A stretch of DNA of 21,521 nucleotides, from positions 1-21,521 of the IMG/VR virus record IMGVR_UViG_3300036893_000010. One strand, written 5' to 3'. The notes below the pieces were generated by a model. The model was not told the origin of the DNA and did not search any database. It saw only the letters and a list, made by a program, of their open reading frames with translations. The DNA comes from a virus. A program made the translations under genes and the position numbers. This document shows, in pieces, positions 774-21,137 of this stretch (its first letter is position 1; each line of letters begins with the position of its first letter).

Positions 774-2000
774 CTAAGAACTGACGCCGGCGGCCGGGAA
801 CCAACCCGGGTAACTGTGCCAGCGACTGAGTCCGTTTTTACTCCTGATAATCGAGCTACGACTCTTAGTAGCCCAGTTACCCTTAGCGGCCGCCAGCCGT
901 GCAGCATAGGATGCAGCGTAATAATCGCGCCACTTGGCATCTTTTTTGTATTTGTAGTATTTCCACAAAGCCCAGTCCTCTGGGATGTCCTGCATATCGA
1001 CGTGCAGCGACATAATCTGATTGACCGACCAGCCGTTTGTAGAGTGGGTGGTGATTGATTGATAGACGTTTCCGATGGTGACATTAGAGCTGTTATTAAC
1101 TTGGACGATTTTATACCAGTTACCATCGCCGTCGTCACCGGTAGAAATATAGGTTGAGCCAAGCGCCATCCAGGGCAGGAATATTGGAACGGTAGAGCTA
1201 ACGATATTGCTGTTATAGGTGAATGTCAGGGTCGGTGCCAACGGACTAACAGTAGTAGGCGTAATGCCTACATGGTCTAGTTTGATATCCGAAGACTCAT
1301 AGACTATCTGCATTGGAACTCCAGTCCCCGTCGTGCCTTGCATAGTACCCATAGTCGTAATAGTGTCGTTTACGGTGGTGTCGAGGGTAATCGTAACAGT
1401 ATTTCCCGTAACTAGTTGAATAGTATATTGGCCGTTTATGTTAGTCCCTGAAGCCATAACAAAGCCAGCTAAGTCGACTGTAGCTCCGACTGTCGCAAAA
1501 CTAGGCAGAGAAGAGAAGGTTAGGTTTAGCTCCGTGCCCGTCTCATTACCAGAAGTCGGAGTATAGGTAGAACCTGAACCGACATAGTTCACAGCCGTAC
1601 ATATAGGGTCTATTTGAAGCTCGGCCGAACCAATACCGAAATTCTCATTTATGTAGTATAGAGAAGGTATTCCGCCAATATCATACTCAATGCGATAGTT
1701 CCACATCTCGGTTGATTCCTCTTCTTGAAGCTGGTACCAGCGTGAGCCGATTTGAATCTTTACTGTTTTAATGAATAGATAATCGGGAGGCAACTGATAA
1801 TTGCGGTTAGAATCAGTTAGAGGGTTACCAGGCACTTGTGTGGTTGTGTTTGTAATCTTCTCAATGCCAGGACGGCCGAATGTAGCAATAAGGTTCTGGT
1901 AGCCTTGATTTAACCAGCGAATGAACTTCTCTTGAGAGTCAGAGGTTGTATCTGAGGTCTGGTCTTGGCAGTCTTGAAGTGCTTCATCTAGGGTAATCAT
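774..2000 (-). CDS. Head-to-tail adaptor candidate (gp4-like) with a large beta-rich insertion
   Basis: 408 residues. The N-terminal 60 or so residues (LDEALQDCQDQTSD, then KFIRWLNQGYQNLIATFG) match the pattern of phage adaptor proteins that sit under the portal: an acidic helix followed by a W/FLN-x-GYQ-like helix. The C-terminal part returns to a helical, basic and aromatic segment (ALWKYYKYKKDAKW, then SYAARLAAAKGN). Between about residues 115 and 320 is a Thr/Ser/Gly-rich beta region that looks like an inserted domain. The start ATG lies two bases after the upstream stop with GGGA as ribosome site. The adaptor assignment rests on pattern recognition only; a tail fibre or other minor virion protein is the alternative. 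Confidence 0.6.
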   Translation of the reverse strand: MITLDEALQDCQDQTSDTTSDSQEKFIRWLNQGYQNLIATFGRPGIEKITNTTTQVPGNPLTDSNRNYQLPPDYLFIKTVKIQIGSRWYQLQEEESTEMWNYRIEYDIGGIPSLYYINENFGIGSAELQIDPICTAVNYVGSGSTYTPTSGNETGTELNLTFSSLPSFATVGATVDLAGFVMASGTNINGQYTIQLVTGNTVTITLDTTVNDTITTMGTMQGTTGTGVPMQIVYESSDIKLDHVGITPTTVSPLAPTLTFTYNSNIVSSTVPIFLPWMALGSTYISTGDDGDGNWYKIVQVNNSSNVTIGNVYQSITTHSTNGWSVNQIMSLHVDMQDIPEDWALWKYYKYKKDAKWRDYYAASYAARLAAAKGNWATKSRSSIIRSKNGLSRWHSYPGWFPAAGVSS

Positions 2001-2001
2001 A

Positions 2002-3207
2002 TTAGTTCCCGCTTACTAGAGATCCTGTTACAAAACACGTTCCTATACCAGTTACAATGGCGGTAGATCCGCCTGAACCTAGGTAGATCTGGATGTAATC
2101 ACCAGTAGCTAACTGTATCTCGTCGTAAACATTTGAGGAGACGTTGCTCACCGCAGCTCCGTTGATACCGTTTGTGAGCACACTACCGTTCTTATAAATG
2201 AACACCTGCCATGCTGTCGCTGGAGTTCCGCTGGCTTGGATGAAGGAATAGAATCTATAAAACCCTGGTATTGGCGCGGTAAACTTACCTGTCGAGGTCG
2301 AATAATTATCGCCACTATCATAGACCTCCGTATCGAATGTGATCAATTCATTACCGCTTGCAGAGTTCAGTGAAGCATTACGGTATGCCCTAAACTTATA
2401 ATTATTAGATACTTTGTTCAAATAGACTGGTCCAGGCGGAGAATATAAATTACCTAGAGAATCGCCGCCTATTTGAGTGATTGAACTTATAGATGATGCT
2501 CCAGTAACTACTTTGGCTAGTCGGATAGAGTTAGCAGCCAAAGAAGGAGAGGCAGAGCCATTAGAAACGGCCGTATAAGTTATCCCCGTCCCCACTGTGT
2601 AGTCCACATAAGTATCATCTGAAGCTCCAAAGGTATGACTACCGACTGCAACTTGAGAGTATTGGACACCAGCAATCCAAAATACCCCTGCGGTCATAGA
2701 TCCGACTAATCCCGACCCAGTGCTCCAGACCGCTCCAGACTGCACAAAGTTTCCCATTGAAGATCTAAAGTCTATCATATTCGAACCGTTATCTTGGACT
2801 TTACCAGCGCCTTTGGGGACTAGGTTGAGTGAAATGTTATTATCGGTTCCAAGTACGGAAATAGTTGGAGCATTTCCTGTTGAACTATTCCCGATATTTA
2901 TATAATTAACTGCTCCTGCAGTTGGAGTCTGGCCGATCCACTCATTATTATTAGCGTCTATTAGGCTCGTAGTGATGCTAGGGCTTGTAAGGGTATTGAC
3001 CCATTCACTATCGTTAGGGCCTATTCCGACAAGGAAACTACTCGCAGATGCCACGGACGCACCGGCACCAAGCTTGGTCTCAATCGCTACGATAGCGTCA
3101 TTAGCAAATCCGTGTTGCAAATGGTGCGGTGCGGAGGCTAATGTATCGGTCGTTTGAGGATCGTATTGTTCGGGGTCAAGTGCGCCTGGATAAAGTGTAT
3201 TAGACAT
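2002..3207 (-). CDS. Tail fibre protein with C-terminal C1q-like domain
   Basis: 401 residues from ATG 3207, preferred because AGGT sits 7 bases upstream; a GTG at 3234 would add nine residues. The N-terminus carries a typical fibre segment (HHLQHGFANDAIVAIETKLG, residues 28-47). Residues 104-140 read like fibre repeats seen in many phages (GNAPTISVLG, then NLVPKGAGKV). The last 130 residues (about 268-398) fit a C1q/TNF-like jelly roll: FDTEVYD, then GKFTAPIPGFYRFY, WQVFIYKNG and GDYIQIYLG. C1q domains are trimeric and bind diverse ligands, so a receptor-binding fibre tip is a reasonable inference. The start overlaps the stop of the repeat protein by 8 bases, so translation is probably coupled. 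Confidence 0.75.
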   Translation of the reverse strand: MSNTLYPGALDPEQYDPQTTDTLASAPHHLQHGFANDAIVAIETKLGAGASVASASSFLVGIGPNDSEWVNTLTSPSITTSLIDANNNEWIGQTPTAGAVNYINIGNSSTGNAPTISVLGTDNNISLNLVPKGAGKVQDNGSNMIDFRSSMGNFVQSGAVWSTGSGLVGSMTAGVFWIAGVQYSQVAVGSHTFGASDDTYVDYTVGTGITYTAVSNGSASPSLAANSIRLAKVVTGASSISSITQIGGDSLGNLYSPPGPVYLNKVSNNYKFRAYRNASLNSASGNELITFDTEVYDSGDNYSTSTGKFTAPIPGFYRFYSFIQASGTPATAWQVFIYKNGSVLTNGINGAAVSNVSSNVYDEIQLATGDYIQIYLGSGGSTAIVTGIGTCFVTGSLVSGN

Positions 3208-4357
3208 CGTTATTACCTGACCATATTGTATCACTTGAGGGGTAAACTGACACTAGGTTATCTGTTCCGTCATAAGGGATTGAAGCGTCGTAGAAAACTG
3301 GAGCATCGTATAGAGTTGCTCCGTCTAAGTAGTTAGGGTTCTGCGACCACAATGTATCACCTATAACGTCTTGATTTTCCCACAGTACATCAGTCGCAGG
3401 GTAAACTGAGGTAATGTTCCCTGTAACAGCTCCGTCAAAAGGATAGCTAGCATCATATAAGGTATTGGGATCGTCGTAATCCACCGCACCTTGTAAGTAA
3501 GTAGGGTTTTCATACCATAGAGTATCTACTGGAAGTTCGTAGTTAGGGGTAAAGCTCGGTAATACGGGAATTACTGGATTAACTACCTGAGGAGGTCGTA
3601 ACTTTGTACTGTGTTGTCTAGCAAGATGTACTATTTGGGATTTATTGATAGCATAAAAGAACCTCCCTATTGTTGGTAGGAATATAAGTATCGGGTTAAT
3701 CACGCTCGCGGGTTGTAGTTTCGTACTATATGGTTTTTTCTGTTTCTGATTAAGCGCTCTTGGTATTGCCTGTAAATGAGTGCCTAGCGTTGGCAAGAAT
3801 GGCGGTTTCCTGAGTAGCAAATAAGGTATGCCAGTATACTGTGACTTACCACGGAACTTGTAGTCATTGCGGTCAGTTGTGACAGCTATTAAATGAGTGC
3901 CTAAAGTCGGTAAGAAGAGGTTTGGCTTAGGATTGATGGTAGTCGCCGGGAATAACTTAACTTCATACTTAAAGCGTCTGGTGATGACTTGGTTTGTTTT
4001 TACGGCTTGTAACTTAACGCCGAGTGTAGGCAGGAATACAGGAGGATTTAATAATGAATAATTAGTCCCAGTATACTGGGACTTACCCTTAAATTTATGT
4101 GCATCCATGGACCTTTGGATGGCGGTAAGATGAGTTATAAGTGTAGGAAGAAACAGGTTAGGCTTCGGGCTGATTACAGTTGGTGGAAATAATTTGGTAG
4201 ATTTCGGTCGCCTAAGAGAAGATTCTTGAGACCGCCTAACCGCCTGAGTATGACCCCCTAGTGTTGGTAGGAATATAATAGACGGCGCAGGATTAACTAC
4301 GCCAGCTTGTTTGAGGCCAGATCCCCTCCAAGGGTATGAACGTCCTAAACGCGCCAT
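3200..4357 (-). CDS. Repeat protein: seven 39/40-residue FLPTLG units plus duplicated acidic C-terminus
   Basis: 385 residues. The core FLPTL (or FLPTI, VLPS) begins at residues 29, 69, 108, 148, 187, 226 and 265, a period of 39 or 40. Units alternate, so the true repeat is about 79 residues: KLFPPTVISPKPNLFLPTL-type and GKSQYTG-type segments recur 79 residues apart. Up to residue 270 I count 38 Lys/Arg and only about 5 acidic residues. From 271 to the end there is no Lys or Arg and about 19 acidic residues. That half is itself two copies of a roughly 53-residue unit (278-331 and 334-385), each beginning DTLW and containing YDAS-x-P-x-DG and SVYP. The start ATG overlaps the upstream stop as TAATG. 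Its place among fibre genes suggests a virion surface or tail protein. I do not recognise a family for the FLPTLG repeats. Confidence 0.8.
   Translation of the reverse strand: MARLGRSYPWRGSGLKQAGVVNPAPSIIFLPTLGGHTQAVRRSQESSLRRPKSTKLFPPTVISPKPNLFLPTLITHLTAIQRSMDAHKFKGKSQYTGTNYSLLNPPVFLPTLGVKLQAVKTNQVITRRFKYEVKLFPATTINPKPNLFLPTLGTHLIAVTTDRNDYKFRGKSQYTGIPYLLLRKPPFLPTLGTHLQAIPRALNQKQKKPYSTKLQPASVINPILIFLPTIGRFFYAINKSQIVHLARQHSTKLRPPQVVNPVIPVLPSFTPNYELPVDTLWYENPTYLQGAVDYDDPNTLYDASYPFDGAVTGNITSVYPATDVLWENQDVIGDTLWSQNPNYLDGATLYDAPVFYDASIPYDGTDNLVSVYPSSDTIWSGNNDV
3203..3526 (-). repeat. Two tandem copies of an acidic unit of about 53 residues
   Basis: Copy one is encoded by 3526-3365 and copy two by 3358-3203, in the 3' end of the repeat-protein gene. 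Both run DTLW..NP.YL.GA, then YDAS.P.DG, then SVYP..D..W, and both end in N-x-D-V. Neither contains Lys, Arg or His. Confidence 0.75.
3548..4312 (-). repeat. Tandem coding repeats, about 117-120 bp (super-unit about 237 bp)
   Basis: This stretch encodes the seven FLPTLG-type units. DNA similarity is visible between alternate units: for example ccagtatactgtgacttacc at 3831 and ccagtatactgggacttacc at 4069, 238 bases apart. Such spacing points to duplication of a two-unit block rather than of single units. Confidence 0.75.
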
Positions 4358-5091
4358 TAGTAAGTACCCGATCTGTTAACAGCTTGTAATCTAACTATCC
4401 CAGGATTAGGTAAAAGAACTCTATCTATATAAGGATCTAAAACGACTTCACCTATCGCCCAACTGTCCAAGCTTCCTACAGCACTCCAACTCATGACTTG
4501 AGTGCCAGCAGGAGTGACAGGGCCAATGTCACTCATAGCACCTGTGCCTAAAGCACCAGTGTTATTAGTGCGTTGCGTAGCACCTCCTGCCACTGTCATA
4601 GAAGTATTGGAAGTGGTTAATCCGCTGACTACCCAAGCATTGTTATCTATTGTTGTGGCAGTGACACTGGGGGTACTCACTCCGCTACCAGTCGATCCGT
4701 TACTGGATTCTACACAATCATATTGGTCGACATTATTATAGGATGAAGCACTCGCTATTGAGGTGACACTGGTATTCAGAGTAACCGTTACGGTGTTAGA
4801 ACCATAGGCAGGAGCGGGCAGTGACCACATCTCATTCCTATAGACACCTATAGTGTTAGCTTGCTCGAACACCATATTAACTCCACCGTAGGTTATAGAG
4901 GCAACTTGTCCTGTAAGGAATATGGAAACGTTTACTATCAACCCTCTTAGAGGCCCAGCACAGGTATGGCTCCAACTGTAAGTCGATAGACTAGCCTCAT
5001 ACCCCGATGAAGAAGAGTTATCGAATAGAATACCGGGGACTGGATATCCTTGGCCGAAGTATGGTTGGCCAAAATAAACGCCGCCAAACAT
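4357..5091 (-). CDS. Beta-rich virion protein ending in one FLPTLG-type half-repeat
   Basis: 244 residues with a strong AAAGGAG ribosome site 6 bases before the ATG. The N-terminus has the aromatic FGQ repeats common at the start of small phage structural proteins (YFGQPYFGQGY). Residues 22-125 form a beta-sandwich-like region (SLSTYSWSHTCAG, SITYGGVNM, NEMWSLPAP, NTVTVTLN, SYNNVDQ) resembling an adhesin-type domain found in many environmental secreted proteins. Residues 126-220 are Ser/Thr/Gly-rich. The last 20 residues, VLLPNPGIVRLQAVNRSGTY, match the core of the repeats in the next gene (FLPTLG..LQAV), so the two products are probably related or partners. The stop is shared with the next start (TAATG). 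Confidence 0.75.
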   Translation of the reverse strand: MFGGVYFGQPYFGQGYPVPGILFDNSSSSGYEASLSTYSWSHTCAGPLRGLIVNVSIFLTGQVASITYGGVNMVFEQANTIGVYRNEMWSLPAPAYGSNTVTVTLNTSVTSIASASSYNNVDQYDCVESSNGSTGSGVSTPSVTATTIDNNAWVVSGLTTSNTSMTVAGGATQRTNNTGALGTGAMSDIGPVTPAGTQVMSWSAVGSLDSWAIGEVVLDPYIDRVLLPNPGIVRLQAVNRSGTY

Positions 5092-5102: not shown

Positions 5103-5834
5103 TTAGCAACACTCCACTAAGATAGATATTGAGTTACCAGAACCAACATAGGTTATGAAGCCGTCTGAGGCGTTGGTCGTTTTATAGGCTAGCGAATAGT
5201 ATTGTGCCCCTGCACTTGGAGAGTTGTCTATAACGACTGCAGATTTAAAATATTCACCAGCATTTATATTAAAATCCTGAACTAGAGTAGTTAGTGCCCC
5301 AGAAGTAGCACCTTTATATATGGCAACATTTCCAGTAGCTCCACTAATGTTTCCCATCAAGTAAGCACTAACACTTACTTTAACTTTCGTCACCCCTGTT
5401 GGCACAGTTACACCTGTCGTTACTCCTGTTACTAAAACATATGACGTACTAGCGGTGCTTGGAGTTGCTGTAATTGATGTAGATCCTAAATATTGCCAAA
5501 CGGGTGCACCGGCTACTATAAGCCCCTCTATATCAGTTATGACTTTAGGAGTAATCGTGTTAGATATCTGGTCGCCCACTAAAATAGAACGTGCCGAACT
5601 TCCTTCCTGCATGCGAGTAATGGTAAAAGTGTCCGTTGAGATATTAGTGATACGAACTACCTCAGAATTAGCCGTGGTTGGTTGGGCTCCAGCTGGCCAG
5701 ACTGTACAGTTTTGAGGATTACCAAATAACGCTCCGTTTCCACTCTGCACAGTTAAAGATGTTCCGCTACTAGCTGGAGAGGGAGCTGTTAAGACTGTCG
5801 AGTAGCCTTCCCTAGAGTGAACATCATAGCTCAT
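5103..5834 (-). CDS. Phage fibre or baseplate-like structural protein
   Basis: 243 residues, start supported by GAGAGGAG upstream. The first half (SLTVQSGNGALFGNPQNCTV, then NSEVVRITNISTDTFTITRM) resembles a small beta domain often found at the N-terminus of phage fibre-like proteins. It is followed by a short helix (KVITDIEGLIV). The second half (about residues 112-243) is a Thr/Ser/Val-rich beta region (VTVPTGVTKVKVSVSAYLMG, then NVAIYKGATSGAL) ending GNSISILVECC, plausibly a jelly-roll tip. It lies between other virion genes. The role is inferred from composition and context; no catalytic motif is visible. Confidence 0.7.
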   Translation of the reverse strand: MSYDVHSREGYSTVLTAPSPASSGTSLTVQSGNGALFGNPQNCTVWPAGAQPTTANSEVVRITNISTDTFTITRMQEGSSARSILVGDQISNTITPKVITDIEGLIVAGAPVWQYLGSTSITATPSTASTSYVLVTGVTTGVTVPTGVTKVKVSVSAYLMGNISGATGNVAIYKGATSGALTTLVQDFNINAGEYFKSAVVIDNSPSAGAQYYSLAYKTTNASDGFITYVGSGNSISILVECC

Positions 5835-9888: not shown

Positions 9889-10974
9889 CTAGACTCCTGT
9901 TACTCCGTACAGCTGACCATTGCGGCGTGGCTGCCAGCTCATTAAGTTACCAAGCAGGATAACGTCTGCGATACCGGCGAATTGGTTGAATGGTGCGCGG
10001 AAACCGCTCCAGCCGAAGCCAGACCATTGACTCATTGGGTAGTCAGTGTACAAACCATCAACAGTGGTTGTACCCATCTTGACGGAGTTGTAGCCGAATA
10101 TACCCTTTGGATCCCAACCATACCAGTCAATCCAGTTCTCGTTCAAGAACCAGATAGTGCCAGTAGGACTCTTGTTGTCGCGGACCACCGGGACACCCTT
10201 ATAGGTAAGTGCTACGAAGCCGCCTTGACCTGAAAGACCTTGCTGAGGTACTCGCTCAATTGGACCTAATCCGACGTTGTAGTAACCCAATTGCTGATAA
10301 TTCTCGCGGATGCTTGGAGTATATAGCTGCTCCATGTAGTCCCAGGTCGTGTTGTTAGCAGCGCCCAAAGTAGGCGTGCTCATGTCGGAACCGTCGGAAA
10401 TGTTCGAGTAAAGTGTAGCTAACTGTGGGAACGAAATTGCGCCGTTTGAAGCAGCAGTTCGTGTTGCTTTAAGTACCGGGTAAGTCGTGCGTGAAAGGTA
10501 ACCGATGTAGGTAACGTTAGTACCGTCATCAACGATAGCTCCCAGACCAACGGGATCCTTGTTAGAGTTACCAAGGCCGGTGCCGTATAGGTAGCCGCCC
10601 AGTGCGTCTGAGAGCTCCTGAGCACCCTCGTCCAAGGTCTCTTTAACTAGGTCAGTGATTTGCAAGTCACCAGAGTTCTGGTTGGCAACGCCTTCCATAC
10701 CATCTATTGCTAGAGGAATGCGGATACCGCGCATATCATAAGACATACGAACTTTAGTGACGAATTGAGAGGCAACGAATGTGTCTAGACCTGCGAACGA
10801 AGTAGCGTAACCGGAGATTGCGTACTTGATCGGTTTCTTGATACTTTCACCCTTACCCTGCTTGCCGCGGCCAATCCAGCGGAGACCGATAATGTTGGAG
10901 CGGAATGCGTTATCAGCAACCTTGGGCAGTAAGTAGTTTTGTGTGAGGGCGAGGACACGTTCAGGAAAATACAT
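9889..10974 (-). CDS. Likely major capsid protein
   Basis: 361 residues, AAGGA upstream of the ATG. It follows the scaffold-like gene and has the strongest-looking promoter of the window with a conserved leader, as expected for the most abundant virion protein. It begins MYFPERVLALTQNYLLPKVA. Residues about 30-75 (GESIKKPIKYA, then FAGLDTFVASQF) look like an N-terminal arm and E-loop. The helix ITDLVKETLDEGAQELSDAL (about 106-125) is followed by GGYLYGTGLGN, a usual spine-helix pattern for HK97-fold capsid proteins. The C-terminal region (VALTYKGVPVVRD, TIWFLNENW) fits the axial domain. HK97 fold is inferred from these patterns, without a computed match. Confidence 0.8.
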   Translation of the reverse strand: MYFPERVLALTQNYLLPKVADNAFRSNIIGLRWIGRGKQGKGESIKKPIKYAISGYATSFAGLDTFVASQFVTKVRMSYDMRGIRIPLAIDGMEGVANQNSGDLQITDLVKETLDEGAQELSDALGGYLYGTGLGNSNKDPVGLGAIVDDGTNVTYIGYLSRTTYPVLKATRTAASNGAISFPQLATLYSNISDGSDMSTPTLGAANNTTWDYMEQLYTPSIRENYQQLGYYNVGLGPIERVPQQGLSGQGGFVALTYKGVPVVRDNKSPTGTIWFLNENWIDWYGWDPKGIFGYNSVKMGTTTVDGLYTDYPMSQWSGFGWSGFRAPFNQFAGIADVILLGNLMSWQPRRNGQLYGVTGV

Positions 10975-12253: not shown

Positions 12254-12565
12254 TTAATATGATGATGCTTTGTTCTTGATCGCTTTCATTTTATCACTAC
12301 TCGTTTTAGTTGTCGAGTCTACCGGTTTAATACTGATAATCCGAAACCGGCCGCGGATGACATTAGGAAGTTTGTCATCGTCGCCAAAGTAACTATCAAC
12401 GCCCTGATGTTTACTAATCATCTCGCAGTGAATGATAGCATCATATGTTTGGCCAACATCATAATCAGCAACTTCTGGCATATCGGTTGAGTCTAAAGAG
12501 ATAGTAGGCAGTACGTGGACTACTTTGGTCTTACTGGCAGAGATTGGTTCTATTTGCTCGCTCAT
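12254..12565 (-). CDS. Small head-module protein with basic C-terminal motif
   Basis: 103 residues. The start overlaps the upstream stop as ATGA; GGGGT serves as ribosome site. Residues 35-82 look like a small beta domain (YDVGQTYDAIIHCEMISKHQ, then GRFRIISIKPVD). The last residues, DKMKAIKNKASSY, match the C-terminal basic motif of the two genes before it (12562-12759 and 12746-12916). A capsid-associated role is suggested only by location between portal and scaffold. Confidence 0.7.
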   Translation of the reverse strand: MSEQIEPISASKTKVVHVLPTISLDSTDMPEVADYDVGQTYDAIIHCEMISKHQGVDSYFGDDDKLPNVIRGRFRIISIKPVDSTTKTSSDKMKAIKNKASSY

Positions 12566-12759
12566 CTGGTGACCCCGTTCTTATCAGCTAGGCCGAAAGT
12601 CTTGGCTTTCTTACGCACCGCAGCCATTTTCTTGGCTGTGTCGAATTTAATCTTTATTTTAACAGACTTCATTTTGGACTTTTGGTCGTCGGCCATTCCG
12701 AGCACGGATTTAATAGCCTGTTGGCTAGCTTGGACTTTCTGATCTTTACTTGGCTCCAT
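12562..12759 (-). CDS. Small basic head-module protein, 65 residues
   Basis: Lys-rich, mostly helical (MEPSKDQKVQASQQAIKSVL, then KSKMKSVKIKIKFDTAKKMA) with KKMAAVRKKAKTFGLADK near the C-terminus. This matches the tail of the 56-residue protein encoded just before it. It overlaps that gene by 14 bases in another frame and the following gene by 4 bases. A nucleic-acid or scaffold-binding role is possible from charge alone. Confidence 0.65.
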   Translation of the reverse strand: MEPSKDQKVQASQQAIKSVLGMADDQKSKMKSVKIKIKFDTAKKMAAVRKKAKTFGLADKNGVTR

Positions 12760-12916
12760 ATTGTTTGGCCTTCTTTTTAATAGCTCGCATATCGCGGCTC
12801 TTGCGGGTAGTAGGTAGTTCAGGCTTTTGCTTCATTTTAGCCTCTCGCCTTTTCTGATCCAGTAACAGTGTGCCGGCGTTAACAAGGGTTGGGGGCGTTG
12901 CAGATTTTTCATCCAT
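12746..12916 (-). CDS. Small basic head-module protein, 56 residues
   Basis: The ATG at 12916 overlaps the previous stop as TAATG, and the TAA lies inside the next gene. This gene fills an otherwise empty 156-base gap. The sequence starts MDEKSATPPTLVNAGTLLLD and ends MRAIKKKAKQYGAK. The C-terminal motif (M-x-A-I/V-K/R-K-K-A-K-x-Y/F-G) recurs in the next gene, which supports both being real and related at the tail. No ribosome site is obvious, so coupled translation is likely. Confidence 0.7.
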   Translation of the reverse strand: MDEKSATPPTLVNAGTLLLDQKRREAKMKQKPELPTTRKSRDMRAIKKKAKQYGAK

Positions 12917-13262: not shown

Positions 13263-15404
13263 TTATACTCCTGGTGGTGGTTGTGGTGCAATAGGCGCTG
13301 GAGGTAGATTGCCTGGATTAGTAGGTGGAGCTGCCGGCAAAGCTGGACCTTGGGTGAACGCTGAACCAGGAGTATTTACTGCGAAGTTCTGGAAGTTTTG
13401 AGATAATTGCTGCACAAAGTCTCTGAAATTGCCCTGGATATCCTCAGGTAGCGACTGGAACTGGCCGGAGTGTACGAAATCTAGGACCGTTTGTACATAC
13501 TTGGAATCAAACTTATCGGGTGGCGCGATGATGTTGTCCTGGACCATTTGCTGAATGTCGTGTTGAGCATCTTCAGCCGACTCAGTTTGGTCACCACCAA
13601 CTGTGAATGGTGGCTGAGGGTTCTGATTAGCTTCGAGTTCGACCTGAATCTCTTTCAGATAAGTAGCGTAGGCATCTTGGCCGCCATTTAAGAAGGCAAT
13701 CAGCCTACGAGTGCGCTCTTTTGGATTGCTTTTATCCATGTCTTCAAACATCGAGAGTGGATCAATCGCTTTTCGGCTAGCCATATTTAGAGCATCAGCA
13801 CGATTAGTCATAGCATCTACTGAGTTGGCTTTGACATCAACATCGATACCTTCAACGAAACTTTTACGTGAAAGTTCCGCGCTCAGGACTGAGCCATCCT
13901 TACCGGTGGTCTTTAGGAAGTGGGGTTCGTCATAGAACATTTTACCCATTTGCATGGCCCAGCCAGCCATCTCGTAAACTACTCGCTCCACGACTATGTC
14001 GACTAAGTCGTCGGATTGGGTTAAATCACCCTCGCGAGTAATTTGTTTGGCAGTGCCAGATTCACTGGCTGCACCTTGCTCGCCCTTTATAGGGCCGTGC
14101 GTATTAAATAGCGCATCCATCCGCGAGCGAGCGTCCTGCAGCAACTGCATTAGCTCAGGACTTGGTGGGTTCGCTTGGATCCAAGTCATCGCTTTGTCGA
14201 CTTCCGGGGCATCCAACCAAATAGACTCGTCCGGGTCGCTTGATACTCGGCGCGCATCTTCCTTCGTGATGAGGTTTCCAAATACTTTCTTAGGAACAGC
14301 GTTGTCGGAGATCTCTACGATCTGCCGGCCGACGCGGTTAATCAACCTTTGAGTCGGAATTGACTGCTCCATCGGGGTAGTGTCGTCGTAAGGAGAGTTA
14401 CCAAGATTCTGATAGGTAAAGAACATATACGGTTTGCGAGGAACATCGAAGTAATTATAGAAGCGCTCCTCGCTATCGAGCGTAGCAGTCTGTTTGTAAT
14501 TGCCGTCTTTATCCATCTTAGGCAGGTAGACCTTGTAACCATCCCAATCATAATAAGGATTCTTTTGCTGATCTAAACAGAGGGTCATATAGAACCAGCA
14601 GGTTGCCTCGTAAGTCTGGCCGTCTTTGTAGTACCGTAGCCACCACTCTTCGTATTTGATTTTACTCGGCGTCGGCACGCCGCTGATACTAGATGATGAT
14701 TCAAGCAAGTTACGCAGATCGGCCGCTTTCTTGGGGAACTTAGAATAGACTACTTCAACCGGCTCTTCCAATAGTTCGCCAATAAACTCCATATTGTCGG
14801 CTGTAAAGCCGTCGTGGGGAATCGTGGAAGTTGGATCCAGCATCAAACGATCAGGTTGGACTAGCACGAACTTAAAGTCGCCGGTGCCTTTAGCAAGCGA
14901 CGGATCCCACAGACATTTGATGGCGGCGGTGTAGTTGATCTCGTGTTGCCGCAGACCATCCTTCATCATACGTTGGGAGACTTTGTTGTTCACCTTCTTG
15001 TTTAGGAACTTCTCGATAATCTGAGCGTCCTCGACAGCCTTTTGATTGTCATCGTGCGGTGTGCAGATGATATCCGGCATACGTTGTGAGGCAAGCGTAA
15101 AGCGAGTCTCCGAGTTCTCGTAGATAATTGGATCCATATAATCGGAGTGGTAATCGCCCGGCGAGCCTGCATCTTCAGCGTAGTGCTTGCCGCGCCAGTA
15201 ATCCCGATTGCGCTTACGGCGATCCTCAAGCTTTAAATCACTCTCAGCGAACTGTTTAGATTGCTGGCGTTTCTGTTGTATTAAAGTGTACAAATCGTTG
15301 TCATCCAAAGGTAGCGAATAGCGGGCACTCTGGTCAGATATACCAGGAGTATTATCGTCTCGGTACTGCGGGTAGTAGTCAGATGGGCTGACGGAGTTAT
15401 CCAT
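13263..15404 (-). CDS. Portal protein
   Basis: 713 residues, AGAGG site 5 bases before the ATG. The N-terminal half has the signs of a large portal: a charged helical start (LIQQKRQQSKQFAESDLKLE), WRGKHYAED, then VLVQPDRLMLDPTST, the usual mid-clip strand pattern, and MEFIGELLEEPVEVVYSKFP. The centre has YDDTTPMEQSIPTQRLINRV with the long helix that follows, and the TAKQITREGDLTQSDDLVDI segment. A basic and acidic helical part and a Pro/Gln-rich tail (last 40 residues) end the protein. Length is in the range of P22-like portals (about 700). Location after terminase and lysis genes, and before scaffold and capsid, agrees. No protease fusion is visible. Confidence 0.85.
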   Translation of the reverse strand: MDNSVSPSDYYPQYRDDNTPGISDQSARYSLPLDDNDLYTLIQQKRQQSKQFAESDLKLEDRRKRNRDYWRGKHYAEDAGSPGDYHSDYMDPIIYENSETRFTLASQRMPDIICTPHDDNQKAVEDAQIIEKFLNKKVNNKVSQRMMKDGLRQHEINYTAAIKCLWDPSLAKGTGDFKFVLVQPDRLMLDPTSTIPHDGFTADNMEFIGELLEEPVEVVYSKFPKKAADLRNLLESSSSISGVPTPSKIKYEEWWLRYYKDGQTYEATCWFYMTLCLDQQKNPYYDWDGYKVYLPKMDKDGNYKQTATLDSEERFYNYFDVPRKPYMFFTYQNLGNSPYDDTTPMEQSIPTQRLINRVGRQIVEISDNAVPKKVFGNLITKEDARRVSSDPDESIWLDAPEVDKAMTWIQANPPSPELMQLLQDARSRMDALFNTHGPIKGEQGAASESGTAKQITREGDLTQSDDLVDIVVERVVYEMAGWAMQMGKMFYDEPHFLKTTGKDGSVLSAELSRKSFVEGIDVDVKANSVDAMTNRADALNMASRKAIDPLSMFEDMDKSNPKERTRRLIAFLNGGQDAYATYLKEIQVELEANQNPQPPFTVGGDQTESAEDAQHDIQQMVQDNIIAPPDKFDSKYVQTVLDFVHSGQFQSLPEDIQGNFRDFVQQLSQNFQNFAVNTPGSAFTQGPALPAAPPTNPGNLPPAPIAPQPPPGV

Positions 15405-15875: not shown

Positions 15876-16267
15876 CGCGGAGCGTTGGGGTCTGTAACTA
15901 GGTTGCCGGCTTCGTCAGTGACTTCAATCTTGGTTGGAGGTGCGGCCGGGGCTGCAGGTTCGGGCGTTGTAAGTTGGTCTACGCCATTCAAGACCGGCTC
16001 CTCGGACTCAATTTTAGCGACCACTTGATTTACTTCCGGCTGCAATGCTGGCGGTACTTCGGCTAATGCTTGCTGCTCGTCCTTAGTGATCAGCTGCTTC
16101 AAGGTGACCAGTGCCACGTTGATCGGCACGGCTAGGGCGATATAGGTAGCGTTGTGGGCTAACCATACCGGTAATGCTGCCAGCAGGAACGATACGCCGA
16201 CATAGAAAAACGCCTGGACGATTTTGCCCCATTGCTTCTTGGTGACTGGTGTGATTGAAAGTGCCAT
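15872..16267 (-). CDS. Holin-like membrane protein with DPNAPR tail
   Basis: 131 residues; AAGG 7 bases upstream, start overlapping the endolysin stop (TGATG). Two hydrophobic segments, about residues 17-37 (VQAFFYVGVSFLLAALPVWL) and 41-58 (TYIALAVPINVALVTLKQL), are followed by a soluble acidic and Pro/Ala-rich tail. Size, two membrane spans and place next to the endolysin fit a holin. The last 16 residues (VTDEAGNLVTDPNAPR) match the end of the protein encoded at 16964-17347. A membrane anchor for a virion-associated lysis factor is the alternative. Confidence 0.7.
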   Translation of the reverse strand: MALSITPVTKKQWGKIVQAFFYVGVSFLLAALPVWLAHNATYIALAVPINVALVTLKQLITKDEQQALAEVPPALQPEVNQVVAKIESEEPVLNGVDQLTTPEPAAPAAPPTKIEVTDEAGNLVTDPNAPR

Positions 16268-16956
16268 CAGTTTACCTTATATACCCCAGGCGCGAGCACA
16301 GTAGGCTGTGCGCCTGCATTTTTGCCGGCTTCCATCCAGCCAGTGATTTCTTGGTACTCGGATGTGGTTGCTAGATTATCGATGCATTCGTCGAACTGGT
16401 GGCCAGTCCAGTACTGAATTTCCTCTGGTGTTGGCGGCCGCCTAAAGCACGCTTGTATAACTACGGTTACGCCGTTCGCATTCATGCCTGTGGGTTGGGA
16501 TGGTTGCATAGTACCTCCATTATATCTTAAATAACCTAAAACGTCAGTATAGTTGTGCTGCACTTGATGGGCTACAGGGTAGCCTTGGGCGTTATAATCG
16601 CCTCCCCAATTTGAGTCAAACCCGGTATAGCCGCTTGGTCCGCCAACCGCTATGCAGATATCGATGTGCCCATAAAGCGGTGAGTTGATACTATTGCTGG
16701 CGCCAAACACCACGATATCACCCGGCTGCGGATAGACTCCGCTGGTGTAGGGGATCCGTGTAAAGTTATCGGCCAGGACTTGCGTGCTACCGTAGTCGTT
16801 CCACCAATCCACGGCGTTTAGCATTGGCGGCGTAATGCCAAGGACATCGACACAATAATAGGCTACTAGTTGTACGCACTGCCCAGTATCAGCCGGGATC
16901 TTATCATAATCCAGCGCCTGAGAGTTTTCGGTGGCTACAAACTGGGTGAGTGTCAT
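16267..16956 (-). CDS. Endolysin with CHAP domain and a C-terminal DUF4214-like segment
   Basis: 229 residues; TAGGAG lies 4 bases before the ATG and includes the stop of the upstream gene. The CHAP domain covers about residues 15-145: catalytic Cys27 in TGQCVQLVAYYC, GDIVVFG (79-85), His97 in YGHIDICIAVGG, and SNWGG (115-119) with Asn116 as likely third residue. CHAP enzymes cut peptidoglycan as amidases or endopeptidases. Residues 164-205 (VIQACFRRPPTPEEIQYWTG, then NLATTSEYQEI) resemble DUF4214-type repeats, possibly a wall or polysaccharide binding part. There is no signal peptide, so release would need the neighbouring holin. Confidence 0.85.
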   Translation of the reverse strand: MTLTQFVATENSQALDYDKIPADTGQCVQLVAYYCVDVLGITPPMLNAVDWWNDYGSTQVLADNFTRIPYTSGVYPQPGDIVVFGASNSINSPLYGHIDICIAVGGPSGYTGFDSNWGGDYNAQGYPVAHQVQHNYTDVLGYLRYNGGTMQPSQPTGMNANGVTVVIQACFRRPPTPEEIQYWTGHQFDECIDNLATTSEYQEITGWMEAGKNAGAQPTVLAPGVYKVN

Positions 16957-17501: not shown

Positions 17502-17684
17502 CTATACCCGGCGCTTGAAGTTGATTGGAAAGTCCGCGGCAAACAGCCAGAGCAATGCTCCGACTAGGCCGATAATACCGATAACTACGAGGCCAGTTTT
17601 GCCGAACTGTACCCAGTTAATGAAGTACTGCGAGATAGAGACTAAAACGATCCAGAGTGCGATTAGTAAGTTAGATAGGTTCAT
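17502..17684 (-). CDS. Small two-span membrane protein
   Basis: 60 residues with AAGGA 7 bases before the ATG. Two hydrophobic segments (LSNLLIALWIVLVSISQYFI and TGLVVIGIIGLVGALLWLFA) are joined by a short polar loop, with a basic end (NFKRRV). It lies between the large terminase gene and the endolysin. Size and topology suit a class II-like holin or an antiholin partner of the 131-residue protein, which is inference. No other motif is present. Confidence 0.7.
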   Translation of the reverse strand: MNLSNLLIALWIVLVSISQYFINWVQFGKTGLVVIGIIGLVGALLWLFAADFPINFKRRV

Positions 17685-17715: not shown

Positions 17716-19152
17716 TCACGTTGGTCTAGGTCTGCTTGGCGGCCGGCTGTTATATTTAGCCACTGCTTCCATCAAATCAGGCGGTAGTATCGAGTTATCG
17801 GGTAGTACACTGAACGGATTGCTTTTGATTTCGCGGACTGATTCGTTGTATTTGATAGGGCCTGACTGAGCAAAATGAGGAACGACCATGATAAGCGCAC
17901 ACGTTAAGGCATCATAAGCGTGGTCCTCGCCGTCGGTGTCTATATCCTCGGGATCATTATCGTCGTTAATTAGCTCCGGTATAGTTCTAATCAGATTACG
18001 GTTGTTCGAATGTATTTGGATTATAGGTCGGCCGTCATCGGCATCTGCTAGTACCGAGTGCAGTAGTGCTTTACGCATATGCCTACTTCCACTAGGAGTT
18101 TTAGCCTGCAATATGTTCATATTGCCTTCGCGTGAAAAGATATCAGCGATTGACTCGCCCATTTCCTTGTTGAAACAATCGGGTGGTAACCATAGGTCGC
18201 GTACTCCGTCTAGCTTCTGCAGCATCTTGAACTGCCGAGCCCACTCGCGAGGTTCGGTTTGAGTTAGGTACAGCTCACGATAAACGTAGATCCGTACAAT
18301 ACCGTACTTATTCTCTGGAGTGATAGCACACCATAGCGCACATCCAGGAGCGGAGTATCCCCAGTCGAAACCTATAAACTTCTTGCACTCTGATAGCTTG
18401 AACTCAAAGCTATCGTTGACGTGCATATTCGGGTTCCACTCTCTAAATGCTTGGCCGGCGATGATAGACCAATCACCCATGCGCCAGGCTTTCCAAAGGT
18501 CCGGGTCGGTATCTTTCAAGGCATCCATCTGACGAACGTAATCAGGATCGTTCTGCGATAGCATCGGGTTGTCTTCAATAGTGGCCGGGATGTAGATACG
18601 TCTTAGTCCATAAGCATCCTTGTAGATCGAGTAGTGGGGGGCGATGTCTATAAAACGTTTCTTGACCCAGCTATGTCCAATACCACCGGGGTTTCCGGTC
18701 AAGAATGTTTGAGCCCGCAATCCTGGAACGGTAGAGCGATTGGATGCTTTGAGCTGCAGATAACGTTTCTCGTCGCGGATCTGGGTAATCTCTTCAATCA
18801 ACTGGCGTTGGTATTCTTGACCTTGGTATTTGGTGTAGCTCTGATCGTCTTTCAAGTGACCGGTTATGATTTTAGCTCCACTTGGAAATGATAACTCCCA
18901 CGGTCTGTAAGCGATGTGCACGCCTTGACCAGAGTACATACGACTAGCGCGGTCCACCCAGTCTTGTAAATCGTTGGCGTTCTTACGAATTACCAAGCCA
19001 CGGAACAACGGCTCGTCTACCTTCTCGCCCATCCAAACTATGCCGGTGTCAGTCTTACCACCGCCACGAGCCCCGCCATAGAATATCTCGTTGACGTCGT
19101 CAGGGGTCGAGAGGGCGAATGTCTGAGGACCCGGTTGGGCTGTCCACTGCAT
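17716..19152 (-). CDS. terL: Large terminase subunit (packaging ATPase and nuclease)
   Basis: 478 residues. The ATPase domain has Walker A GGARGGGKT (26-34), a Walker B-like LIEEIT with acidic residues at 120-121, and the coupling motif LTGNPGG (151-157). The nuclease domain (from about 250) has Asp263 in GFDWG, Asp325 in PPDCF, and Asp410/Asp414 in DGEDHAYDAL, the usual RNase H-like acidic set. The protein translocates DNA into the prohead and cuts it. The gene overlaps the small subunit by 53 bases. Length and motifs are complete. The type of packaging (headful or cohesive ends) cannot be read from sequence by eye. Confidence 0.95.
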   Translation of the reverse strand: MQWTAQPGPQTFALSTPDDVNEIFYGGARGGGKTDTGIVWMGEKVDEPLFRGLVIRKNANDLQDWVDRASRMYSGQGVHIAYRPWELSFPSGAKIITGHLKDDQSYTKYQGQEYQRQLIEEITQIRDEKRYLQLKASNRSTVPGLRAQTFLTGNPGGIGHSWVKKRFIDIAPHYSIYKDAYGLRRIYIPATIEDNPMLSQNDPDYVRQMDALKDTDPDLWKAWRMGDWSIIAGQAFREWNPNMHVNDSFEFKLSECKKFIGFDWGYSAPGCALWCAITPENKYGIVRIYVYRELYLTQTEPREWARQFKMLQKLDGVRDLWLPPDCFNKEMGESIADIFSREGNMNILQAKTPSGSRHMRKALLHSVLADADDGRPIIQIHSNNRNLIRTIPELINDDNDPEDIDTDGEDHAYDALTCALIMVVPHFAQSGPIKYNESVREIKSNPFSVLPDNSILPPDLMEAVAKYNSRPPSRPRPT

Positions 19153-19678: not shown

Positions 19679-19903
19679 CTATTTTGTGGCTGGTTTTGGC
19701 ATGTTTGCTAGCTTGCGCTTCATGAAATCAAGCTGCAGTTTGCGGGTTGCCGGTTTCTTGCTGAGGCTCGGGTTGATTGATCCGTCCGGGTTCAGGGCTG
19801 CCGACCGTTGCAGTGTTCGCCGTAGGGACGACTGGCCTTGATACTGGGACTGTGGTGTCAGGTTGGCTTGCTGCGGGCTTGGTGTTGGTAGCGGCTGGTT
19901 CAT
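19679..19903 (-). CDS. Small gene overlapping the methyltransferase 3' end in another frame
   Basis: 74 residues from ATG 19903 (an earlier in-frame ATG at 19942 would give 87). It starts MNQPLPTPSPQQANL and ends in a basic helical tail (TRKLQLDFMKRKLANMPKPA then TK). 176 of its bases also encode the Pro/Thr/Ala-rich tail of the methyltransferase in a different frame. Neither start has a strong ribosome site. The protein-like basic tail and the extension beyond the methyltransferase stop favour a real gene; the low-complexity overlap leaves doubt about which frame is under selection. Confidence 0.45.
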   Translation of the reverse strand: MNQPLPTPSPQQANLTPQSQYQGQSSLRRTLQRSAALNPDGSINPSLSKKPATRKLQLDFMKRKLANMPKPATK

Positions 19904-21137
19904 TCCCTGATTGTACCACCGGGGTGTTTTCTTGCCAACCATCGTCTTTGCCGTTTATGAACTTCCAGTAGCGCTTGCGGATCACGTCGCAGTATTTGGG
20001 GTCTAGCTCCATGCCATAACAAGTTCGGTCTGTTTGTTCACAGGCTATAAGAGTTGAGCCAGAGCCGAGGAATAGGTCTAGCAATACGCCTGGGTTATGA
20101 TTAGCGATTGCGGTTGCTGCTAAGAATACAGGCTTTTGTGTAGGATGCTCATAATTACTGTCCCTGCCAGACTCCCAAACAGTGGTTTGTGTCCTATCAG
20201 TTACTCTCTCTTTGCGTGTTCCTTTCCATCCATATAAGCAAGGTTCGTGCCTGCTTCGGTAGTCTTGGAACCCCATACTTGCTTGCTTCTTTAGCCAAAT
20301 AATTGTTGCCGATAACTTAAACCCTGCTCCAATGAATGCTCTTTCAAACAGCGGTCTTAGTTCTGGCTTAGAGTCTGCGTGCCATACAAAGCAAGTAGTC
20401 CCGTCCCTACTAACATCAAATGCGTTCTTTAATGCACTACTAACCATAATCTCAGTGTCTTCTATGCTTAACGCATCATTCTCAATCTTGTTACTTGTAT
20501 TCTGGCCTCGGCCAGAATAGTCCACTCCATAAGGTGGATCAGTAAACACCATATCAGCCTTATTGCCGTCCATCAGCAAATCAACATTCTCTTTGACCGT
20601 ACTATCCCCGCACATAACTCTATGTCTGCCTAGCTTGTAGATTTCCCCTAATTTGCTGACCGCAACATCGGCAACGGGGGGGGCTTCATCCTCTTCAAGC
20701 GTATCGTCGTCACCCTGGGCCACGAACTGCAACGCATCGAAAGCTACGTTCTCAAAGTCCTCGTTCTCTAGCTCATCCGTAAACTCGTCAAAGCCCTCCT
20801 GCGTGATAGTTTGGTACTGGCTGGATATTTCCAGTAATTGAGCTTTGGCATCGCGACGATCCTTGGCTTCAATCAAGATATAGGGCACAGCGTAATTGCC
20901 TTCGTCGTTCATTTGCTCCCGGAGCATTACCCGCTGCCGGCCGTGCCCGTCCATCAGGTAATTCACGCCGTCATGCTTCCAGATGAACACCGGCACGGTG
21001 AAGCCGCGGCGGTTCAATACGGTCTTGAGCTTATTGTAGTTTTTCTCGGTCAGGTCTTTAAGGTTGCCTTGCAGAGGCTCGAGCCCCCGGTAGTCTATGG
21101 TTGGTAGGCGGTTCGGATTATGTATCTTGATTTCCAT
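19728..21137 (-). CDS. ParB-domain / adenine-type DNA methyltransferase fusion
   Basis: 469 residues; GGGGGAG 8 bases before the ATG. Residues 1-105 are a ParB-like N-terminal domain (PVFIWKHDGVNYLMDGHGRQ with RV, then LLEISSQYQTITQEGFDEFT). Residues about 163-395 form a methyltransferase of the beta type: catalytic DPPY at 200-203, then HPTQKP (331-336) and the SAM-binding motif DLFLGSGST (354-362). It probably methylates adenine N6 (or cytosine N4) in phage DNA, giving protection from restriction or marking for packaging. The last 70 residues are Pro/Thr/Gln low-complexity and overlap another frame. The domain fusion is common in phages. Target sequence unknown. Confidence 0.9.
   Translation of the reverse strand: MEIKIHNPNRLPTIDYRGLEPLQGNLKDLTEKNYNKLKTVLNRRGFTVPVFIWKHDGVNYLMDGHGRQRVMLREQMNDEGNYAVPYILIEAKDRRDAKAQLLEISSQYQTITQEGFDEFTDELENEDFENVAFDALQFVAQGDDDTLEEDEAPPVADVAVSKLGEIYKLGRHRVMCGDSTVKENVDLLMDGNKADMVFTDPPYGVDYSGRGQNTSNKIENDALSIEDTEIMVSSALKNAFDVSRDGTTCFVWHADSKPELRPLFERAFIGAGFKLSATIIWLKKQASMGFQDYRSRHEPCLYGWKGTRKERVTDRTQTTVWESGRDSNYEHPTQKPVFLAATAIANHNPGVLLDLFLGSGSTLIACEQTDRTCYGMELDPKYCDVIRKRYWKFINGKDDGWQENTPVVQSGNEPAATNTKPAASQPDTTVPVSRPVVPTANTATVGSPEPGRINQPEPQQETGNPQTAA

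Follow-up and report, generated by a model that had tools for sequence, protein, structure and literature searches.

The question raised by this locus is what a 385-amino acid (aa) protein with a basic, repetitive half followed by an acidic half does in a virus, and whether its two oppositely charged halves work as one unit. We analysed the window, i.e. the whole stretch of DNA, a 21.5-kb IMG/VR record in which all genes with family matches (Pfam/PHROGs-type profile matches) are encoded on the minus strand.

Gene Order and Features of the Locus

The gene order in the window is TerL, portal, major capsid protein (MCP), head-proximal genes, fibre/minor-tail-like open reading frames (ORFs), the repeat ORF, a C1q protein and an adaptor. 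The features on which our analysis draws are:

17716-19152, minus strand: TerL (family match)
13263-15404, minus strand: portal (family match)
9889-10974, minus strand: MCP (family match)
5103-5834, minus strand: fibre/minor-tail-like ORF (family match)
4357-5091, minus strand: upstream gene, 244 aa, minor-tail-like (phrog_2106; YFGQxYFGQ N-terminus)
3200-4357, minus strand: repeat ORF, 385 aa, basic repeat half and acidic half
3554-4318, minus strand: seven basic FLPTL half-units (profile A3, E 1e-22 to 5e-8; periodicity; codon test)
4202-4318, minus strand: FLPTL half-unit
4082-4201, minus strand: FLPTL half-unit
3965-4081, minus strand: FLPTL half-unit
3845-3961, minus strand: FLPTL half-unit
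3728-3844, minus strand: FLPTL half-unit
3611-3727, minus strand: FLPTL half-unit
3554-3610, minus strand: FLPTL half-unit, partial
3365-3535, minus strand: acidic W/YD module copy 1, residues 275-331 (E 6e-26 with profile A4, which contains both window copies; match over the whole ~58 positions)
3431-3478, minus strand: triple Tyr/Phe-Asp motif YDDPNTLYDASYPFDG, residues 294-309 (from the sequence; threefold motif in all homologues)
3203-3364, minus strand: acidic W/YD module copy 2, residues 332-385 (E 2e-22 with the same profile, likewise over its whole length)
3266-3310, minus strand: triple Tyr-Asp motif YDAPVFYDASIPYDG, residues 350-364 (from the sequence and homologues)
2002-3207, minus strand: next gene, fibre-type protein (C1q PF00386, E 1.9e-9; N-terminal alignment)
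774-2000, minus strand: SU10-type adaptor homologue (PF24175, just below the curated cut-off)

The coordinates, frame and length originally predicted for the repeat ORF were correct. The stop codon of the 244-aa upstream ORF overlaps the start codon of the repeat ORF in the sequence TAATG, and the repeat ORF overlaps at its end, by a few bases, the fibre gene, whose ATG is at 3207. The C-terminus of the upstream ORF (VLLPNPGIVRLQAVNRSGTY) resembles one FLPTL half-unit at a level that is not significant (E 32), and homology between this ORF and the corresponding protein of a related record, L102, was not significant either. The fibre protein combines an N-terminal region common to relatives with a C1q domain in its C-terminal part; as we take C1q domains to be trimeric folds from what is known of the family, the fibre is presumably a trimer. 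The adaptor is orthologous to the adaptors of relatives and scores 26.1 bits against PF24175 (cut-off 27); the adaptor of G002, the nearest long relative (41 kb; MCP 86%), scores 23.3 bits. Compared to the 324-aa G002 orthologue it contains an insertion of ~80 residues. The proteins encoded past the adaptor in G002 are without confident family match; a comparison with SU10-type short-tailed phages (nozzle and ejection proteins, no tape measure) is one of layout only. The virus of the window is probably a short-tailed phage.

Three further ORFs were noted on reading the sequence. Upstream of the terminase genes, a 469-aa ORF (19728-21137) seemingly joins a ParB-like N-terminal part to a DNA methyltransferase-like part. 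Between the large terminase and portal genes lies a seemingly CHAP-like lysin ORF (16267-16956), with a small membrane ORF nearby (17502-17684) that is possibly a holin.

The Basic FLPTL Repeats

The seven FLPTL-type cores were found at exactly the positions predicted, with the predicted alternation of 40 and 39 residues: Phe or Val of the FLPT/VLPS cores occupies residues 29, 69, 108, 148, 187, 226 and 265, and LP of the cores falls at residues 30, 70, 109, 149, 188, 227 and 266. Self-comparison of residues 1-285 against 500 shuffles gave peak offsets of 79 (z 13.2), 39 (z 7.4) and 118 residues (z 6.6), confirming the proposed period of about 79. The half-units of 39 or 40 residues are Pro-rich and basic, and the charge counts of the original prediction proved exact, with 38 Lys+Arg versus 5 Asp+Glu (14% versus 2%) in residues 1-270 and 0 versus 19 in residues 271-385; the pI is 11.4 for the basic and 4.05 for the acidic half. 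AlphaFold, run without relatives, returned no usable model (pLDDT 33 for the whole 385-aa chain and 52 for one repeat unit).

The two clearest 79-aa units, residues 54-132 and 133-211, share 53% nucleotide identity, with a saturated pS of 0.78 and a pN of 0.38. These values show that the FLPTL duplication is old and that selection has maintained the encoded protein; since synonymous sites are saturated while the protein sequence is kept, both the frame and the repeat are genuine.

Searches with the whole chain and with pieces of it, and in the case of PDB also with the unit profile, revealed no match to the FLPTL repeats in Pfam, PHROGs, NCBIfam or PDB. Likewise, no match to the repeat protein was found in isolate phages and plasmids or by direct search of IMG/VR. 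The repeat-unit alignment A1 gave 23 pattern matches in IMG/VR and 39 in GTDB contigs, none of them homologous, and a DNA pattern for FLPT-35 aa-FLPT, which as a control recovered the window's own three pairs, gave 45 matches in IMG/VR, most with an internal stop codon and the open ones without profile support. When profile A3 was run against 380 genomes of the small-genome phylum discussed below, the 4 single weak matches equalled chance expectation. An approximate query modelled on Pro/Arg-rich soil-phage repeats matched nothing, and a kinship with these was dropped. These negative results apply to the collections searched, and strongly diverged or metagenomic relatives may exist. The original prediction had placed the repeat outside the recognised phage-fibre repeats, which is supported, given that the profile and sequence searches came back empty while the profile recovered its own seven units. 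It had also proposed a profile search with the seven units and a search for the same repeat in related phage contigs; none of the four family and structure databases provided a matching family, and the unit profile, which recovers all seven units of the window, found no FLPTL repeats in 31 related phage records. Judged by its sequence, the FLPTL repeat is thus an unclassified family, previously unseen. Similar to the shaft repeats of phage fibres, its units are arranged in tandem within a fibre cassette, but they differ from these in being 39/40-residue, Pro-rich and basic half-units that are matchless in Pfam, PHROGs, NCBIfam and PDB.

The Acidic Module in the Window and in Related Phages

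Given the composition of the protein, the chance of finding 0 Lys/Arg in its last 115 residues is 6e-7. Lys/Arg-free stretches of 86-136 residues are nevertheless common among the structural proteins of the window; because stretches of ~100 residues of this kind are ordinary there, it is the basic half that is unusual. The acidic half itself consists of two tandem copies of a ~55-aa module, at residues 275-331 and 332-385. For this module, referred to here as the W/YD module, an independent pairwise match with the G002 homologue showed 44% identity (E 5e-7). A Kelch repeat was rejected for this module, with 0 Pfam matches at E 10; in the only lead, to designed six-fold Kelch proteins (E 8e-5), no single stretch passes.

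In G002 the slot of the repeat ORF holds only a 62-aa acidic ORF homologous to the acidic half. Three records close to the window, L002, L010 and L011, have head genes with 88-93% identity but stop short of this locus. Profile searches detected the W/YD module also in L018, together with records near-identical to it, and in L028, L029/L101 and L102; the L102 module was absent from the search profile, yet it was matched at E 9.5e-11. In these relatives, which are uncultured phages, the module occurs in single copy and without basic repeats, forming an unannotated 58-68 aa protein of its own whose gene immediately precedes that of a fibre-type protein, whereas in the window two copies are fused behind the repeats. 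The order of module and fibre was the same in the window, G002, G005/L018, G009/L101, G033/L102 and G031/L028, with the adaptor gene downstream of the pair in all but G031/L028, whose contig ends. Moreover, the N-terminal ~50 residues of the fibre (FPTSLDSLTNP... type) are kept across the module-bearing phages, as shown by alignment. All seven module copies (7/7) contain exactly three [YF][DN] motifs spaced 6-7 residues apart (e.g. YDQSGVTYDQAGLTYDG), and all seven carry [STD]xW-type motifs on both sides of the triple motif. The single-copy proteins have 0 to 5 Lys/Arg and 5 to 13 acidic residues; therefore acidity is kept, while the total absence of Lys/Arg is not. The module profile matched 6 of the 36 records searched, the window and L028/G031 among them, so that other members either are without the module or carry a diverged form of it.

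A triple YD motif (TYDIDGLTYDMPGLTYDG) was also found close to the N-terminus of a 376-aa phage protein that is different in other respects (L019 1-1128, minus strand), as would be expected of a portable motif, and an IUPAC pattern for it had only four matches in all of IMG/VR.

These results do not support the earlier view of the charge split as a functional design: in line with the refuting condition set by the original prediction, G002 and four further relatives have retained the acidic module alone, with neither the repeats nor a basic half. The acidic half very likely belongs to the fibre cassette, and the bipolar layout is, by this comparison, a fusion in one lineage and no conserved unit.

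A weaker, partial parallel was found in MW202566.1, an uncultured phage from Manatee Spring, in which a hypothetical 704-aa protein (22625-24739) is encoded directly before the adaptor gene. It starts with YLGQQYLGQYYP, similar to the window's upstream ORF, which starts with GVYFGQPYFGQGYP, and thus shares a Y[FL]GQ N-terminus with it. It further contains several Arg/Lys-Tyr-Pro stretches and a Lys/Arg-free acidic W/D tail, and among ORFs of at least 110 aa in the loci compared its charge polarity is second after that of the window protein. However, it is without FLPTL repeats, and because alignment with the window protein was not significant for either half, the parallel is one of layout only. 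In L044, a 115-aa protein with TDW repeats (TDWTPATPNNTDWDPNQAPDTTDW) is encoded shortly before the adaptor gene (12456-12803); it had no match in isolate phages and is perhaps another form of the predicted W/YD dock. Homology with the module was rejected for the W/D tails of both MW202566 and L044, whose alignments were not significant.

A Predicted Fibre Dock and Its Alternatives

In the nozzle of phage SU10, a fibre dock loop presents Trp839, 847 and 857 with pseudo-threefold symmetry, and each Trp contacts one chain of the short fibre, a trimer (PMC9509320). In the SU10 genome the sequence at the dock, GPIWSDFQEITWDDPSIKELVWRKD, shows those three Trp. The dock of SU10 gp17 (Kuravirus) and the W/YD module have in common that a short segment presents aromatic residues three times beside acidic ones, with a spacing of 8-10 residues in SU10, where the dock holds one trimeric fibre; moreover, an SU10-type adaptor gene, in the window a putative one, occurs in both phages. 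The SU10 dock is, however, a loop inside a nozzle (beta-propeller) protein, whereas the module resides in a separate 385-aa protein in the window and stands alone in relatives, and its Tyr/Phe-Asp motifs at 6-7 residue spacing contrast with the Trp anchors of SU10; the likeness is one of layout and not of homology.

The overlapping gene for a probably trimeric fibre, the threefold motif and the SU10 dock loop together lead us to infer a fibre-docking role for the W/YD module. The 385-aa protein, whose gene sits between those of the head and that of the adaptor, would then be a modular virion linker of the fibre cassette. Each copy of the acidic module would present three equivalent Tyr/Phe-Asp motifs, and these would dock the three chains of the C1q-type fibre from the next gene, the window phage thus carrying the predicted dock twice. 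The seven basic units may represent a body or stalk added in this lineage, by which the dock is attached either to the virion or to some acidic surface; binding to an acidic surface of virion or host is a natural guess. We favour this reading of the whole protein, an acidic fibre dock with an added basic stalk, tentatively and at somewhat less than an even chance. Among the functions originally suggested, a tether from the virion to another partner agrees better with the context than head-to-tail self-assembly does. In a bolder and more doubtful version, the module with its triple Tyr/Phe-Asp motif would be a portable docking peptide matching the threefold symmetry of trimeric fibres, and the FLPTL units would constitute a novel structural repeat with which one lineage made a long two-site fibre carrier of this small dock. 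The mode in which receptor-binding fibres are attached decides what phages can exchange during evolution; if the reading is true, a ~60-aa module with a threefold motif, conserved while the neighbouring fibre genes change, would serve as a simple plug, recognisable from sequence alone. The FLPTL repeat is a target for structure determination.

Alternatively, the basic repeats might be an adhesive domain that binds either host-surface polyanions (teichoic acid, LPS, capsule) or acidic partners within the virion, with the acidic module only anchoring the chain in the virion. The strong local basicity of residues 1-270, the protein-level selection on the repeats and the site itself, a variable fibre region in which relatives carry other fibres, are all in line with this explanation. 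However, homology to any known adhesin or lectin was not found, AlphaFold gave no usable model, and a basic stalk is explicable without binding, so that we consider an adhesive role unlikely, though it is the strongest of the alternatives.

The high pI, Pro-richness and lineage specificity of the basic half, together with head genes not far off, could also indicate a nucleic acid-binding or internal head protein that was recombined onto an acidic protein. The gene overlaps fibre/tail-type genes on both sides and not genes for internal proteins, and the regularly spaced hydrophobic FLPTL cores are unlike unstructured DNA-binding tails, which makes this origin improbable. Slightly less probable still is head-to-tail self-assembly, in which the basic half of one chain would bind the acidic half of the next. 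Although the charge split is clean and the MW202566 protein has a similar split in a similar place, that protein is without sequence homology in either half, and five relatives have the acidic module without a basic half, indicating that the latter is not the usual partner of the module. A recent chance fusion or frame error without function, with which the absence of the repeats from every relative searched would agree, is disfavoured by the codon test (saturated pS, far lower pN), which points to a frame long under selection, and is very improbable.

Related Phages and Possible Hosts

Next to the predicted fibre linker, the relatives of the window phage are of interest for their link to Saccharibacteria (TM7), whose phages are little known. 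The nearest annotated relatives are MW202566.1 (MCP 49%, TerL 44%) and MG269973, a phage assigned to TM7/Saccharibacteria (MCP 33%, TerL 38%). The only related MCP in GTDB contigs (34%) was found in L099 (CAIJKW010000051.1), with a genome of ~1.0 Mb, in a phylum that as sampled has genomes of similar small size. These relationships are consistent with Patescibacteria-like hosts, of which they are no proof. Both annotated relatives encode chaperonins (L006 5695-7646; L007 22216-23658), namely groEL and mhsp60 in MW202566 and a Cpn60/TCP-1 protein in the TM7 phage.
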